A program made the position numbers and the translations under genes. This document shows positions 28,998-56,020 of a stretch of 64,000 nt of DNA, piece after piece. The notes below the pieces were generated by a model, which saw nothing but the letters and a program-made list of their open reading frames with translations, had not been told where the DNA came from and made no database searches. The stretch comes from Pectinatus sottacetonis (GTDB lineage: Bacteria; Bacillota; Negativicutes; Selenomonadales; Selenomonadaceae). How positions within the stretch are numbered: position 1 is the first letter of the stretch; every line of letters begins with the position of its first letter. The DNA lies in assembly GCF_015732155.1 (NCBI RefSeq), contig NZ_WIQK01000001.1, positions 62,001 to 126,000 of the forward strand, read 5' to 3'.

Positions 28998-29138
28998 TCA
29001 TTTCTTTAAAAATCTTTCTGCAAATAATTTAGGCGTATTTTTAAATGCATCTGCTGTTGTACCTGCCAAGTGAGAAGTCAATGTCACATTAGGCAATGTC
29101 AAAAATGGTGAATCTGCTGGTAATGGTTCATCCTGAAC
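28998..29138 (-). CDS. D-2-hydroxyacid dehydrogenase, 3' exon
   Basis: 46 residues plus stop: VQDEPLPADSPFLTLPNVTL, then TSHLAGTTADAF and on to AERFLKK. The His in TSHLAGTT is the catalytic His of the D-isomer-specific 2-hydroxyacid dehydrogenase family. The reading frame joins directly to the 5' exon ending ...AAIDTFD at 30664 if the intervening element (29139-30663) is removed. Alone it has no start codon. Confidence 0.85.
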   Translation of the reverse strand, partial: VQDEPLPADSPFLTLPNVTLTSHLAGTTADAFKNTPKLFAERFLKK

Positions 29139-29251
29139 CTCCCACGACTAAAGTCGCGGGGTTCCTGCTTCACGGATAGTTGCGCCAAAAGCACGTCTTA
29201 TATTATCTCCACAGGCTATCCCCGTAGTTCCTACGGTTCTTATATATGTTA
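29139..29251 (-). ncRNA. omega (re)RNA-like 3' region and right-end hairpin
   Basis: Downstream of tnpB the minus strand reads ACCGTAGGAACTACGGGGAT, typical of TnpB guide RNA scaffolds, and ends with a hairpin CCCGCGACT-TT-AGTCGTGGG (29142-29161). In active elements the guide would be the flanking host sequence starting at 29138. Here the tnpB is broken, so any RNA is likely vestigial. Confidence 0.6.
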
Positions 29252-30090
29252 TTATGCTGTTATGTTTAATATTCTTAGTCCTTCATTGCGAATGTTTATG
29301 GCGGCATTTATATCTCTGTCATGCTGGGCTTTACAGTTAGGACATTCCCATTTCCTTATAGTAAGGTCTTTTATTTCTTTGTTCTGGTAACCACAATTAT
29401 GGCACAGCTGGCTTGATGGATAGAATTTGTCTATTTGTACTATTTCTTTGCTATACCACTGAGCTTTATATTTTATCTGGCGGATAAATTCTGACCAGCT
29501 GGCATCTATAATACTTCGGGCAAGTTTGTGGTTTTTCAGCATGTTATTTATTTGTAAGTCTTCTAAGCAGATAACATCGTAGTTTTCTATAAGTTTATGA
29601 GATAGTTTATGCAGCATATCTTTTCGCTGATTTGCAATACGTGCCTGCAGCCTTGCCACTTTGATTCTTGCTTTGTTTCTGTTTATACTTCCCCACCTAG
29701 TTTGGGAAGTTTTATTTTTGTTCCCAGAAATTCAATGTTGCTATTGGTAAAGTTTGTTTTGTAGGATTTATGCCTGTTTTTTTTGGTCTTGAATTTAGGA
29801 AAGCCAACTTTTTTATGTTTAAAGAAGTTCTGGTAAGCTGTATCGAGGTCTTTTAACGCGTTTTGTAAGGAACATTTATCTGGTTCTTTTAACCAGGTGT
29901 TTTCTTTTTTCAACTGCGTTAAATTACTGGAACATTTGGTATAGGTAAGTGTGGTTTTATCATTGTTGTATGCTTTGATTCGCATGTCGAGATAGTGATT
30001 AAAAACATATCTTACGCAGCCAAATGTTTTTTGCAGCAGTAGTTCCTGTGTTTTGTTGGGGTATATCCTAAATTTGAAGGCTTTTTCCAT
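29252..30090 (-). pseudogene. tnpB (IS605-type RNA-guided nuclease), internally deleted
   Basis: N-terminal piece 29683-30090 (MEKAFKFRIYPNKTQELLLQ ... FTNSNIEFLGTKIKLPKLGG) stops shortly after. The C-terminal piece 29252-29659 resumes in another frame at KARIKVARLQARIANQRKDM and carries ICLEDL (RuvC-II Glu), the zinc ribbon CHNCGYQN/CPNCKAQ, and DRDINAAINI (RuvC-III). About 100 or more residues between them, including the RuvC-I Asp, are gone, and the join shifts the frame. The protein cannot cut DNA. Confidence 0.88.
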
Positions 30091-30279
30091 GATTGCTCAC
30101 TTTTCTTTTTATCTTTACAAGATTATTGCCTGATTATTTTAAACTTAACATGCAGGCTTTAGAAAAGCAAGTTCTTTGCAGTAACATATATAAGAGTCGT
30201 AAGTTCTTTTTTAGTCGTATGGGGGAGGTGTCGTTCACACGGGCTCGCTGATTCCTATGCGGTTCTCTTATGAACTCCT

Positions 30280-30663
30280 TTATGTTTCCATAAAGCACAG
30301 ACTATATCTTGTCCTTCGGCATTATCCGTTAAGGTCTGCCCACTTCCAGCCGCTTGGCTGTACTTCCCTCAAGAGGAATAGTCGTTGGGGATTCTCCTGT
30401 TCGGAGCTTTCCTGCTGATTGTCCATTTTCTTAGTGTTTAGGGTTTAACCTTGCACCATACAGCATATTTTTTTTACTTTCGTCGCCGTCACGTTTGAGC
30501 TTGTTTCATCTTAGCGTTGTGGCTATGCTGTCTTTAGGAGTTTCCAGCATTTCAGGCAGTATTGGATTGGTCTTTGCCAATCTCTATATGCATATTTCTA
30601 TACATACTGACTAGTTTGGTCGCCTAACTCAGACTGAAGTCACGAGTGTGCGGCTCCCATTTA
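30280..30663 (-). ncRNA. group I intron catalytic core (5' part of the IStron)
   Basis: Conserved elements appear in order on the minus strand: a Q-like segment AATCAGCAGG (30411-30420), an R-like segment CAACGACTATTCC (30375-30387), and a perfect S element AAGATATAGTC (30300-30310). GACTA in R and TAGTC in S form P7. The 5' exon end TTGAT can pair with GTCAG (30607-30611, minus strand) as P1, with a U-G pair at the splice site. No intron ORF other than tnpB is seen. The interval from about 30091 to 30663 contains no protein gene. Confidence 0.8.
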
Positions 30664-31521
30664 ATCAAAAGTATCAATTGCCGCACCAGCCAATTTTTTT
30701 TCTGATAGTGCCTTAATTAACGCTTTTTCATCTACTAATGCTGACCGTGCTGTATTTATGAAATAAGTATTTTCATCCATTAATGCAAAAATATGACTAT
30801 CAATAATATGATATGTTTCCTCTGTAGCACGCATATGAATAGTCACTATATCTGCTTTTTTGACAACTTCCTCGACACTCTTCAGTCTGTCAGCCTCACC
30901 AGATATACTCACATAAGGATCATAATAAACAATTTTTACATCAAAACCTTTTAAAAATTTTGCTACCAACTGGCCTATATGTCCAAACCCAATAATCCCG
31001 ACAACTTTTCCACCTAATTCCGGAATATTATCTTTATTAGGAAAATCTTTAAACCAAATATCTTTATGCATTTCTGCATTAGTCCGGGCAATATTTCGGA
31101 TCTCTGATAAAATCATGCCGACTGTAAATTCCGCCACAGCTCTGGCATTGCGTCCTGCAGTATTTATCACCTGTATTTTTTTACTTTCAGCATATTTTTT
31201 ATCTACATTTTCTATGCCGCCTCTTAAAACGCCTATATATTTTAGGTTTATTGCCTTATCAATTAATTTCTTTCCAATTGGCATAAACTGAGTAATTATT
31301 AAATCATAGTCACCTATATTTTTTAATAATTCTGGATCACTTATTTCAATGGCATTAGCACCATGTTGTTCAATTTTAATATTGTCATTTTGTAAATCTT
31401 CAACAGATTTATGGCTCCAATCACGAATTTCTACCGTATCGCCATTATTTTCAAAAGCTTTTAATCCATTGCTTAACATTTCTGATGTAATAAGATTATC
31501 ACCAAACGCCAAAATTTTCAT
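30664..31521 (-). CDS. D-2-hydroxyacid dehydrogenase, 5' exon
   Basis: 286 residues from ATG 31519-31521 (AGGATGG upstream; the ATG two codons earlier is less well placed). NAD-dependent dehydrogenase that interconverts 2-oxo and D-2-hydroxy acids. The NAD-binding motif is VGIIGFGHIGQLVAKFL (about residue 160), with the conserved Arg/Gly region GVLRGGIENVD and NTARSALVDE near the end. The frame ends at IDTFD where the IStron is inserted; the catalytic His lies in the 3' exon (28998-29138). Activity therefore depends on intron splicing. Part of the sugar operon, 35 bases after the SDR gene. Confidence 0.88.
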
Positions 31522-52089: not shown

Positions 52090-53967
52090 GTGTGCCCGGC
52101 ATGGGCGCAGTCTAACGGGTGAAAGTCCCGAGTGCAGGTTAATAGTGCCAAGCACATAGCTTAAGGCAAGGGTGTCCATCGCGAGGTGGAATCTAAAGGA
52201 AGCCAGCGGCAAATCTCTGGTCTGACGAACAGAAATCACATATAAGGCAGGAGTAACCGGGTAAGGTTGCTAGACAAACCAAAGCCCAAAACTATTCGAG
52301 GCCAATCCTGTAAATGTGGCAGATGGATGGAGAGAAAGACTGCGTTCTTACCCGGGGAGGTCTCGCGGACATGCAGAAATAAAATTGAAACATGGTTGAA
52401 ATAAGATTTATCGTGAGAAGTCAGCTGAGGTCATAGTACTGGAAGAAATCCAGGAAGGACCGAACAATAATAGCGTTCTTGGGCAGAGGGAGGAGAAGTC
52501 ATGCAAAGAAAGCAGAAAACCAATAAAATGGACTGCCCTTGTAAGGGTATGTTGGAAACAGATAGTAGCAAGGGAGCGCAGAGCATGACATCGCTGGGAA
52601 CTGCAACAAAGAACCGTGTGAACCTGTTAGAAATAATCCTAAGTCCGGCAAATCTCAATGAAGCCTATCTCAGGGTAAAGCGAAAGAAAGGCGCAGCCGG
52701 AGTAGATGGCATGAAAGTTGACGAAATGTACGGATGGTTAAAAGAACATAAGGAAGAATTCCTTGAATCGCTAAAGAACGGGAAATATAAACCACAGCCG
52801 GTACGGCGGGTAGAAATACCTAAGCCAGACGGAGGGAAAAGAAAGCTTGGCATACCAACAGTACTGGACAGAGTAATACAACAAGCAATAATGCAGGTAC
52901 TACAGCCAATTTTCGAACAGACATTCTCAGACAACAGTTATGGATTCAGACCGGGAAAGAGTGCGCACCTGGCCATAAAACAGGCGGAAGCCTATTATAA
53001 AGAAGGATACACTAAAATAGTGGACCTTGACCTTGCACAGTACTTTGACACGGTAAATCATGACATGCTCATAAACATGCTCCGAGAAGAAATACAGGAT
53101 GAGCGCGCAATAGCACTCATCCGAAAATATTTAAAGAGCGGAGTAATGGAAGGCGGAATAATAAGCCCGACAATGGCAGGAACGCCGCAGGGAGGAAACC
53201 TGTCACCATTACTGTCTAACATCTATCTTACAAAATTTGACAAACTGCTAGAAAGCAGGGGACATAAATTTGTAAGATACGCCGATGACTGTAACATCTA
53301 TGTAAAAACGCCAAGAGCGGCAAAACGTGTAATGGAGAGCTGTATAAACTATCTTGAAGGAAAACTGAAACTAAAAGTCAACCGGAAGAAAAGTAAAATA
53401 GGCAGCCCATTGCGGGAAAAGTTTTTAGGATTTTCTCTGCACAAAGTAGTAGGGAAAATAGGAATCAGGCCACACCAAAATGTAATCCGGAAATTCAAGC
53501 AAAAGGTGAAAGAAATAACCGGCCGCAGTCGCGGCCGGTCAATAGAAAGCATCTTGCTTGAATTAAAAAATTATACAATAGGCTGGCTTAATTACTTTTC
53601 CATAAGCGATATGCGCAGCAGAATACAAGATTTAAACCAGTGGATTAGGCGTAGATTGAGAATGTATCTGTGGAAACAGTGGAAGAAAATTTCCGCGAGA
53701 TTTAAAAATCTGAATCGATTAGGATTGTACAAAGGCAAGGCGTGGGAGTATGCCAATACAAGACTGGGGTACTGGCGCATCGCAAACAGTCCAATATTAG
53801 GCAAAACACTAACAGATAAATATCTTGAGTCGCTTGGTTATATGAATATAGCCAAGAAATATGAGATGTTTCATTCACGTTAAATTATTGAACCGCCGTA
53901 TACTGAACAGTAAGTACGGTGGTGTGAGAGGTCGGTCATTCAATTAATGAGTGACCTCCTACTCGAT
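52090..53967 (+). ncRNA. group IIC intron (ribozyme with RT ORF)
   Basis: The 5' end GTGTGCCCGGCATGGGCGCA and GGGTGAAAGTCCCGAGTGC are the conserved start of bacterial class C group II introns. The intron ORF is at 52501-53883. Domain V is at about 53888-53923 (AACCGCCGTA ... TACGGTGGTG) and domain VI ends CCTACTCGAT near 53967; the 3' boundary is uncertain by a base or two. It lies between tnpB and tnpC of IS66, after a terminator hairpin, the class C site preference. All parts needed for splicing appear present. Confidence 0.88.
52501..53883 (+). CDS. ltrA: group II intron reverse transcriptase/maturase
   Basis: 460 residues, GGAGGAGA before the ATG. RT motifs in order: PKPDGGKRKLGIPTVLDRVI (RT1-2), FEQTFSDNSYGFRPGKSAH (RT2-3), VDLDLAQYFDTVNHD (RT3), GTPQGGNLSPLLSNI (RT4), FVRYADDCNIYV (catalytic YADD, RT5). 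The maturase X domain follows (REKFLGFSLHKVVGKIGIRP, YTIGWLNYF). No HNH endonuclease domain, as expected for class C. It assists splicing and mobility of the intron. Confidence 0.93.
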   Translation: MQRKQKTNKMDCPCKGMLETDSSKGAQSMTSLGTATKNRVNLLEIILSPANLNEAYLRVKRKKGAAGVDGMKVDEMYGWLKEHKEEFLESLKNGKYKPQPVRRVEIPKPDGGKRKLGIPTVLDRVIQQAIMQVLQPIFEQTFSDNSYGFRPGKSAHLAIKQAEAYYKEGYTKIVDLDLAQYFDTVNHDMLINMLREEIQDERAIALIRKYLKSGVMEGGIISPTMAGTPQGGNLSPLLSNIYLTKFDKLLESRGHKFVRYADDCNIYVKTPRAAKRVMESCINYLEGKLKLKVNRKKSKIGSPLREKFLGFSLHKVVGKIGIRPHQNVIRKFKQKVKEITGRSRGRSIESILLELKNYTIGWLNYFSISDMRSRIQDLNQWIRRRLRMYLWKQWKKISARFKNLNRLGLYKGKAWEYANTRLGYWRIANSPILGKTLTDKYLESLGYMNIAKKYEMFHSR

Positions 53968-54003
53968 TACTGTAAACATCTTTTTATTAAAGGACGGTTA
54001 TTT

Positions 54004-55109
54004 ATGACACAGCTGGAAGCTTCAATGAAAAAACGCATAACAACATTAGAAGAAGAAAACCTGCGTCTTAAAGAACAGGTTGCTTATCTACGCAAACATG
54101 TATTTGGCCGTAAAACAGAAAAAACAGCTGTTATTTGTGAAGATCAATTAAGCCTGTTTGACGAAGCAGAACAGCAAACAAAGAAAACTGCCCCCGAACC
54201 AGAAATACAGATAATAAAAGAACATAAACGCAAAAAATATTCCGGGCAGAAAAAAGAACTGCTGGAAAACCTGCCACATGAAAAGAAAATTATAACACTA
54301 CCCGAAGATAAAAGAATTTGTAACCGCTGCCAAAGTAACCTTGTCTCCATGGGTGAAGAATTTATCCGCAGCGAATTAGAATATATCCCAGCTAAAGTAA
54401 AAGTAATAGACCTTTACCGGGAGACATTTGAATGCCGCACTTGCCGAAAAAATGAACACTTCAGTATAGAAAAACCACAAATACCAGCATCCGTAATACC
54501 ACATAGTATAGCCACACCGTCAGCAATAGCTCATACCATGCAGCAAAAATATGAATATGCAGTACCGCTTTACCGTCAGGAAAAACAATGGCAGCAATTA
54601 GGCATAAAACTAAACAGAGCAACGCTTGCCAACTGGATAGTTTTAGCAGCACAAGAGTGGCTGCTGCCCATAATAAAAAAAATGCATGAATATCTTTTAC
54701 AAGAAAAAGTTATTCATGCAGACGAAACACCAGTACAAATAATGGGCGAAAAAAACCGTAAAAACACAGCAAAATCCTATATGTGGCTGTATAGCAGCGG
54801 TAAATATGACCCAATACATAACATCCGGATATTCGAATACCAGCCAGGAAGAAAAGGCGATTATGCCCAAAACTTTCTCCAAGGATATAACGGGTATTTG
54901 CACACCGATGCCTATATTGGCTATGAAAAAGTAGAAAACATAAAACATTGTCTGTGCTGGGCCCATGCCAGAAGATACTTCGTTGAAGCAATACCTTCTG
55001 ACACTGATGAACTTTCCGGGACAATAGCACAAGAAAGCATAAAACAAATAAATAAACTGTTTGCCATAGAAAAACTATTAATAAAAGAACCCATACAAAA
55101 CAGGCAAAA
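54004..55109 (+). pseudogene. IS66 tnpC transposase, truncated by IS3
   Basis: Start at ATG 54004 (AAAGGA upstream); the in-frame ATG at 53947 lies inside the intron. Leucine-zipper N-terminus (KKRITTLEEENLRLKEQVAY), the TnpC zinc-binding region CNRCQSNL...CRTCRK, and the DDE part HADETPVQIMGEKN, HTDAYIGYEKV and CLCWAHARRYF. It breaks at about residue 369 where IS3 begins; the C-terminal Glu region and IS66 tail are lost. Confidence 0.88.
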
Positions 55110-55159
55110 TATAATGGCTCACTTGTCAAGACAGAAATCTAAAGATTTTATAATGAACC

Positions 55160-56020
55160 TTAAGCCGTGGCATAGTCTATCAGCATTGCTGGATAGTACA
55201 GCGTAGCTGGCACCTGATAATCAATTGCTGAATGATGCCGTTTAAAATTGTAGGTATAGATATACTTCTTAATTGCTTGACGCGCCTCTTTTAGGTTGGC
55301 ATATTGGGTCAGATAAGCTTCTTCATACTTGAAACTTCGAAATCAACGTTCAATCATAATATTGTCAGCCCATCGGCTCTTTCCATCCATGCTTTGACGG
55401 ATGTTATTCCCTTTGAGAAATTCAATATATTCATTGCTGGTGAATTGACACCCCTGATCTGAATTTAAAATTAGTGGCTTGGCAACTCTAAAAGCTTTTC
55501 CAAGTGCATGAATGACCATTCTTGTATCCAATGTATCATCTACCTCCCAGCCAACAATACATCGGCTATACCAATCGATGACAGCAGTCAAATAAAGGAA
55601 TCCTCGCTTGATGGGAATATAGGTGATGTCTATTGACCAGGCTTGATTTGGCCGAGATATTACGGCATTACGTAGTAAGTAAGGACATACCTTTGCCTGC
55701 TGCATGCGCTTTGAAAGATTCATCTTCGGATATATCGCGTCAATTCCCATTTCCGTCATATATCGGCGTGCTTTCCTGCGCCCTACTAAATAACCGAGGT
55801 TTTTAAGTTGAGATGATATTTGACGTGCGCCCCAAGCGGGATTATCCGTATGAATACGGTCTATAATGGCCTTACATGCAAGCTCTTCTTCTGAAACTGG
55901 CGTTCCTTTGTAATAAATGCTAGTACGATTTACTTCAAGTAATTCAGCGCCTTTTTGAGCTGGAAGTTCCTTAGTCGTCAAAAGGTTTCGGACTAAATTT
56001 ACTTTCGTAGTCAGGTCCAA
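55160..56020 (-). pseudogene. IS3 orfB transposase with a premature TGA
   Basis: rve-type DDE integrase core: IDITYIPIKRGFLYLTAVID (first Asp), LILNSDQGCQFTS (second Asp), and Glu in ADNIMIER. A TGA at 55343-55345 replaces the Trp codon (TGG in copy 1) just after the catalytic Glu region; the frame then continues FRSFKYEEAYLTQYANLKEA to a stop at 55160. A product ending at TGA keeps D, D and E but lacks the last helices. Confidence 0.8.

Follow-up and report, generated by a model that had tools for sequence, protein, structure and literature searches.

A group A IStron inserted in a D-2-hydroxyacid dehydrogenase gene of a Pectinatus-like bacterium and its probable removal by splicing

Group A IStrons combine a group I ribozyme with an IS200/IS605-type element and, according to the 2014 survey of Tourasse et al. 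(PMC4227781), insert directly after TTGAT, TTTAT or ATTAT and end in TCAG. Among the IStrons published for Negativicutes are MspISt1, MfISt1 and SrISt1. The first-pass annotation of the locus studied here regarded an IStron in a sugar operon of a probable Negativicute as notable, a claim that falls with the Megasphaera, Megamonas and Selenomonas elements tabulated in 2014 (PMC4227781). Its assignment of the host was sound, as its TnpB shares 87-89% identity with Pectinatus brassicae copies, which fits a Pectinatus-like member of the Selenomonadaceae. A literature search for group I introns in Pectinatus returned nothing relevant, which is no proof of absence. The element, located in the window (the whole stretch of 64,000 nt that was analysed), belongs to a known type, of which it provides a good new example, and is no new kind of system. 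With its siblings it makes up a multi-copy family of IStrons that can now be added for Pectinatus-like bacteria.

Judged by its sequence features, the element is a group A IStron: the intron occupies its 5' part, it follows a TTGAT target, it ends in TCAG with no target duplication, and an IS200/IS605-type ORF B lies downstream of the ribozyme (Table 1). A group B assignment (GG-ending target, IS607 ORF A) was ruled out by the TTGAT target and the TTCAG end. The covariance search that the first-pass annotation had proposed as a check was run with cmscan against all Rfam models and recovered the group I intron over the full length of RF00028, a model that is general as to intron subclass; the subclass described for group A IStrons is IA2, with P7.1, P7.2 and an extended P9. 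The two P7 strands and the S element were found where they had been placed by eye. Also, folding of the RNA around the exon-intron boundary paired UUGAU with GUCAG (z -2.76), the U-G pair of the splice site being part of an extended stem with pairs on both of its flanks, in agreement with the P1 helix proposed earlier. The IS605-type component is likewise real, since TnpB-type ORFs are present, with PF12323 and PF07282 domains in the remnants and complete tnpB genes in sibling copies. The right end folds into the hairpin expected of an IS200/IS605 end. By analogy with that family, this hairpin would be the end recognised by TnpA, and in relatives that are active it would probably double as the guide RNA's 3' end. 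At the left end, a DNA hairpin was sought and the fold was no better than that of shuffled sequences, with no significant z-score.

Table 1. Features of the IStron and of the gene it interrupts (window coordinates)
Feature	Position	Strand	Basis
Complete IStron (1,531 nt), first bases TAAATGGGAGCC, last bases GGGAGGTTCAG	29133..30663	-	ends common to other genome copies; empty-site orthologue
Terminal TTCAG, last base G, with the 3' splice site after 29133	29133..29137	-	sibling ends; orthologue; group A ending TCAG
Right-end hairpin	29135..29164	-	fold of 29129-29200
Group I intron core, Rfam RF00028	30278..30611	-	69.0 bits, E 2e-15, full model 1-253
Internal guide sequence GUCAG	30607..30611	-	predicted pairing with 5' exon UUGAU (30668-30664)
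P7 5' strand GACTA	30379..30383	-	Rfam alignment
S motif AAGATATAGTC with P7 3' strand TAGTC (30304-30300)	30300..30310	-	Rfam alignment
tnpB remnant, N-terminal part, 135 aa	29683..30090	-	PF12323 E 1.6e-19
tnpB remnant, C-terminal part, 135 aa	29252..29659	-	PF07282 E 1.1e-25, PF01385
5' exon, D-2-hydroxyacid dehydrogenase residues 1-286, ending ...IDTFD / TTTTGAT	30664..31521	-	ORF; ATG at 31521
3' exon, DEPLPADSPFLTLPNVTLTSHLAGTT... to TGA (29000-28998)	28998..29132	-	orthologue comparison with L032

Other introns were noted in the course of the analysis. On the + strand of the window, a group II intron (52175-53967; RF02001 141.6 bits, RF01998, RF00029) surrounds an ORF of 460 aa that resembles a reverse transcriptase (52501-53883). 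An IS66-like transposase ORF (53947-55206) comes directly after it; both ORFs are named from sequence. In genome G177, a distant TnpB is preceded by four group I introns (L125-L128), and a MerR-like, IS607-type reading frame lies between in at least one case; within the same family, these introns probably represent group B IStrons.

The boundaries of the element, whose first base comes directly after TTGAT and whose last five bases are TTCAG, were set by comparison with its siblings and with an empty site. All 11 copies of the window's genome that have a 5' end are preceded by TTGAT, and ten 3' ends in this genome run through ...GTGGGAGGTTCAG (GTTCAG) before the flanks diverge; the ends of the eleventh copy, L027, agree with those of the other copies. 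Two further copies of the same genome look like truncations, namely a 5' intron fragment without the IS part (L018, G000:C1:1560900-1565900) and an IStron without its 5' end (L019, G000:C1:1612300-1617300). An uninterrupted orthologue of the dehydrogenase, L032, is found in the congeneric genome G003 (80% identity over the 5' exon, 95% over the 3' exon) and reads IDTFDDEPLPANS at the junction, or TTTGAT-GATGAACC in DNA, without insertion. Rejoining the exons at TTCAG gives TTTGAT^GATGAACC, the same DNA as in L032, and the joined sequence TTTGATGATGAACC is exactly that of the G003 orthologue. The frame then continues as IDTFD^DEPLPADS and the TSHLAGTT motif is restored. Because the sibling 3' ends run through GTTCAG and the TTCAG junction equals the empty site of the orthologue, the element is taken to span 29133-30663.

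The limits given before, 29139-30663, were right for the start after TTGAT and 6 nt short at the 3' end. A splice site there, at GGGAG^GTTCAG, would also finish in G, as does the true end, and both cuts keep the frame because the 6-nt error amounts to two codons, so that the in-frame rejoining and the recovery of TSHLAGTT claimed originally are borne out with either of them. However, GTTCAG is common to all siblings, the empty site of the orthologue agrees with the TTCAG junction instead, and the VQ that this cut would leave in the protein (IDTFD-VQDEPLPADS) is absent from every aligned homologue, none of which has room for it at the junction. The cut is also at odds with the published group A IStrons, which end in TCAG (PMC4227781). 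It is therefore highly unlikely to be the main 3' splice site, although occasional alternative 3' splicing may take place. Less likely still is that an ordinary IS605-type insertion merely adjoins an unrelated intron. TnpB homologues with no detectable group I intron do exist in Caloramator and others, but here intron and tnpB form one unit whose ends are fixed in all two-ended copies, including the internally deleted ones, and the same ends recur at many loci. The reading of an IStron that splits the dehydrogenase, as first proposed, is upheld by the intron covariance match, the empty-site orthologue, the common ends of the siblings and the orientation of the genic insertions described below.

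In order to assess whether the IStrons are compatible with function of the genes that carry them, the flanks were joined for 29 two-ended copies from G000, the window's genome (10), G010 (10), G090 (5), the congeneric G001 (3) and G072 (1), five related genomes being in the comparison. Three of these copies are intergenic. The other 26 are genic and, without exception, have the sense orientation and leave a single open frame when their flanks are joined. The background share of sense TTGAT inside genes is 0.64 in G000 and 0.56 in G010 (200 kb of each, with genes approximated by long non-overlapping ORFs), which gives P = 1.5e-6 for 26/26 under random insertion. Part of this bias could stem from insertion following the direction of replication. 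About 80% of genes are assumed to be co-directional with replication, and at this figure the probability of 26/26 sense insertions is still ~0.003; the G000 copies, moreover, are interspersed on both strands within 92-706 kb. The split genes include cmk, pyrF, uvrB, kdsC and those for the CCA-adding enzyme and glucose-6-phosphate isomerase. No second copy of cmk (G010), uvrB (G000) or kdsC (G000) was recovered by profile search, the only copies being IStron-split; for kdsC, the short 5' exon is absent from the search output but present in the joined flanks. In kdsC (L012, G000:C1:703600-708700) the split falls exactly inside the catalytic DxD motif, IIFD^VDGVLSDG, so that without splicing the product would probably be inactive. 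Taken together, these patterns suggest that IStrons are very likely spliced in vivo in these genomes, in which case the sole uvrB and kdsC of G000 and the sole cmk of G010 would depend on ribozyme splicing, a natural experiment.

The tnpB of the window copy is broken by a 271-nt deletion, as might be expected of a degenerate insertion that no longer splices and leaves the dehydrogenase a pseudogene. Against this, its ribozyme reaches the 69.0 bits also scored by the uvrB and kdsC copies, the two exons are open as well as conserved, and both element ends are intact, all of which makes loss of splicing very improbable. Conservation of the exons relative to G003 mostly predates the insertion and was set aside as a sign of ongoing selection, and the dehydrogenase gene itself could be decaying. 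If the IStron is spliced, as preferred here, automated annotation would report the dehydrogenase as broken although the enzyme is likely to be functional.

The insertions also share a reading phase, 25 of the 26 genic copies lying at xTT-GAT^. This phase is found in 77-81% of sense TTGAT in coding DNA, the excess having a P of only 0.017, and the preference is mostly a by-product of codon use. The survey of Tourasse et al. reports frequent in-frame insertion (54% of intragenic IStron insertions in C. difficile and Fusobacterium) and suggests that ribosomes are kept off the intron by a stop codon at the junction (PMC4227781). In Pectinatus the stop is immediate in the xTT-GAT^ phase, which fits the published explanation. 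In G010 and G090, however, the phase-0 frame of the intron meets no stop over 63 nt. Shielding by a stop codon does not fit these two genomes, in which 13 of 14 insertions nevertheless share the phase.

With respect to mobility, the 271-nt deletion of the window copy shifts the frame at element position 969/970, i.e. between 29695 and 29694, as compared with full copies such as L017, and from its sequence this tnpB is judged dead. Slippage between repeats was considered as the origin of the deletion and found no support: a 15-nt imperfect repeat occurs near one side, with a spacing of 249 nt vs the 271 nt deleted. No tnpA is present in the window copy either. In recent IStron work, guide RNAs of TnpB are described as overlapping the intron at its 3' end and competing with splicing; judging by the lost tnpB, such competition cannot operate in cis in the window copy. 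The intact TnpA and TnpB required of an autonomous IS605-type element are found in one copy, L009, of the same genome. Its TnpA of 138 aa matches PF01797 (E 8.8e-41) and contains an HIH motif as well as a candidate catalytic tyrosine, while its TnpB of 369 aa has the D, E and D residues at the motifs where they are expected. Over the 40 nt compared at each end, its left end is the same as those of L015 and L017 and its right end differs by two bases.

In G010, L100 and L106 occupy different genes and share an identical 726-nt deletion, by which much of the ORF region is lost, so a TnpB-deleted form has multiplied in this genome; most of the ORF region is also gone from L014 (802 nt) and L114 (892 nt). 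Such copies, together with the intact L009, point to mobilisation in trans by TnpA, with which they fit without proving it. The 2014 survey held trans mobilisation to be unlikely, given that an intact ORF A was found in none of the genomes carrying truncated copies (PMC4227781). One complete copy kept beside many deleted ones makes the idea testable in this family, and mobilisation by L009, if true, would answer that puzzle of the missing intact ORF A.

Targets and guides were compared across copies. Elements inserted after TTGAT (G000, G001, G010, G090, G072 and G127) carry the guide GTCAG, once GTTAG, which still pairs. In one other genus of the family, elements inserted after TTTAT (in one case CTTAT or ATTAT) carry GTAAG in 8/8 cases and, where one is visible, a different TnpB lineage. 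This pattern is suggestive of a guide that changes together with the target, and the switch may be a single event rather than independent changes. The available part of the survey gives the target classes, and no statement on covariation of target and guide was found in it (PMC4227781). A further group I intron with a TTTAT target and a GTAAG guide (L115, G121:C13) is followed by a long sugar-transporter-like reading frame, with no TnpB detected downstream; it is perhaps an ORF-less IStron. We consider it an evenly balanced question whether L009 mobilises the tnpA-less and ORF-less copies in trans while target and guide change together, one pentanucleotide serving both as insertion site and as part of the splice-site helix.

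The course of events that we favour with high confidence is that a group A IStron entered the dehydrogenase gene downstream of TTGAT and is spliced out to give a normal enzyme, and that it moves only with TnpA supplied in trans. In the transcript, UUGAU of the exon would pair with the guide GUCAG; the ribozyme would cut first after the final U of the exon and next at the G that closes TTCAG. Joining of the exons would yield the normal 330-residue protein. Having neither TnpB nor TnpA, the window copy would be movable only by the TnpA of an intact copy such as that present in its genome.

Among described elements (PMC4227781), the closest are MfISt1 of Megamonas funiformis and MspISt1 of Megasphaera, which share the T-rich pentanucleotide target, the TCAG end, the intron upstream of an IS605 ORF B, a truncated ORF A, a Negativicutes host and the 1.8 kb size class. 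They differ in genus and in being single, compared with about a dozen copies here; the window copy also has a broken ORF B, and ORF A is complete in one sibling. CdISt1 of Clostridioides difficile, by its description in the same source (PMC4227781), resembles the element in target, ends, gene order and many copies per genome, and differs in host and sequence. IS607-type group B IStrons such as BcISt1 and SrISt1 are likewise intron-transposon fusions but have a GG-ending target and a serine recombinase as ORF A. ISDra2/IS8301 of the IS200/IS605 family, as the survey describes them (PMC4227781), have the TTGAT target, the subterminal hairpins and TnpA plus TnpB; unlike the element in the window, they carry no intron.
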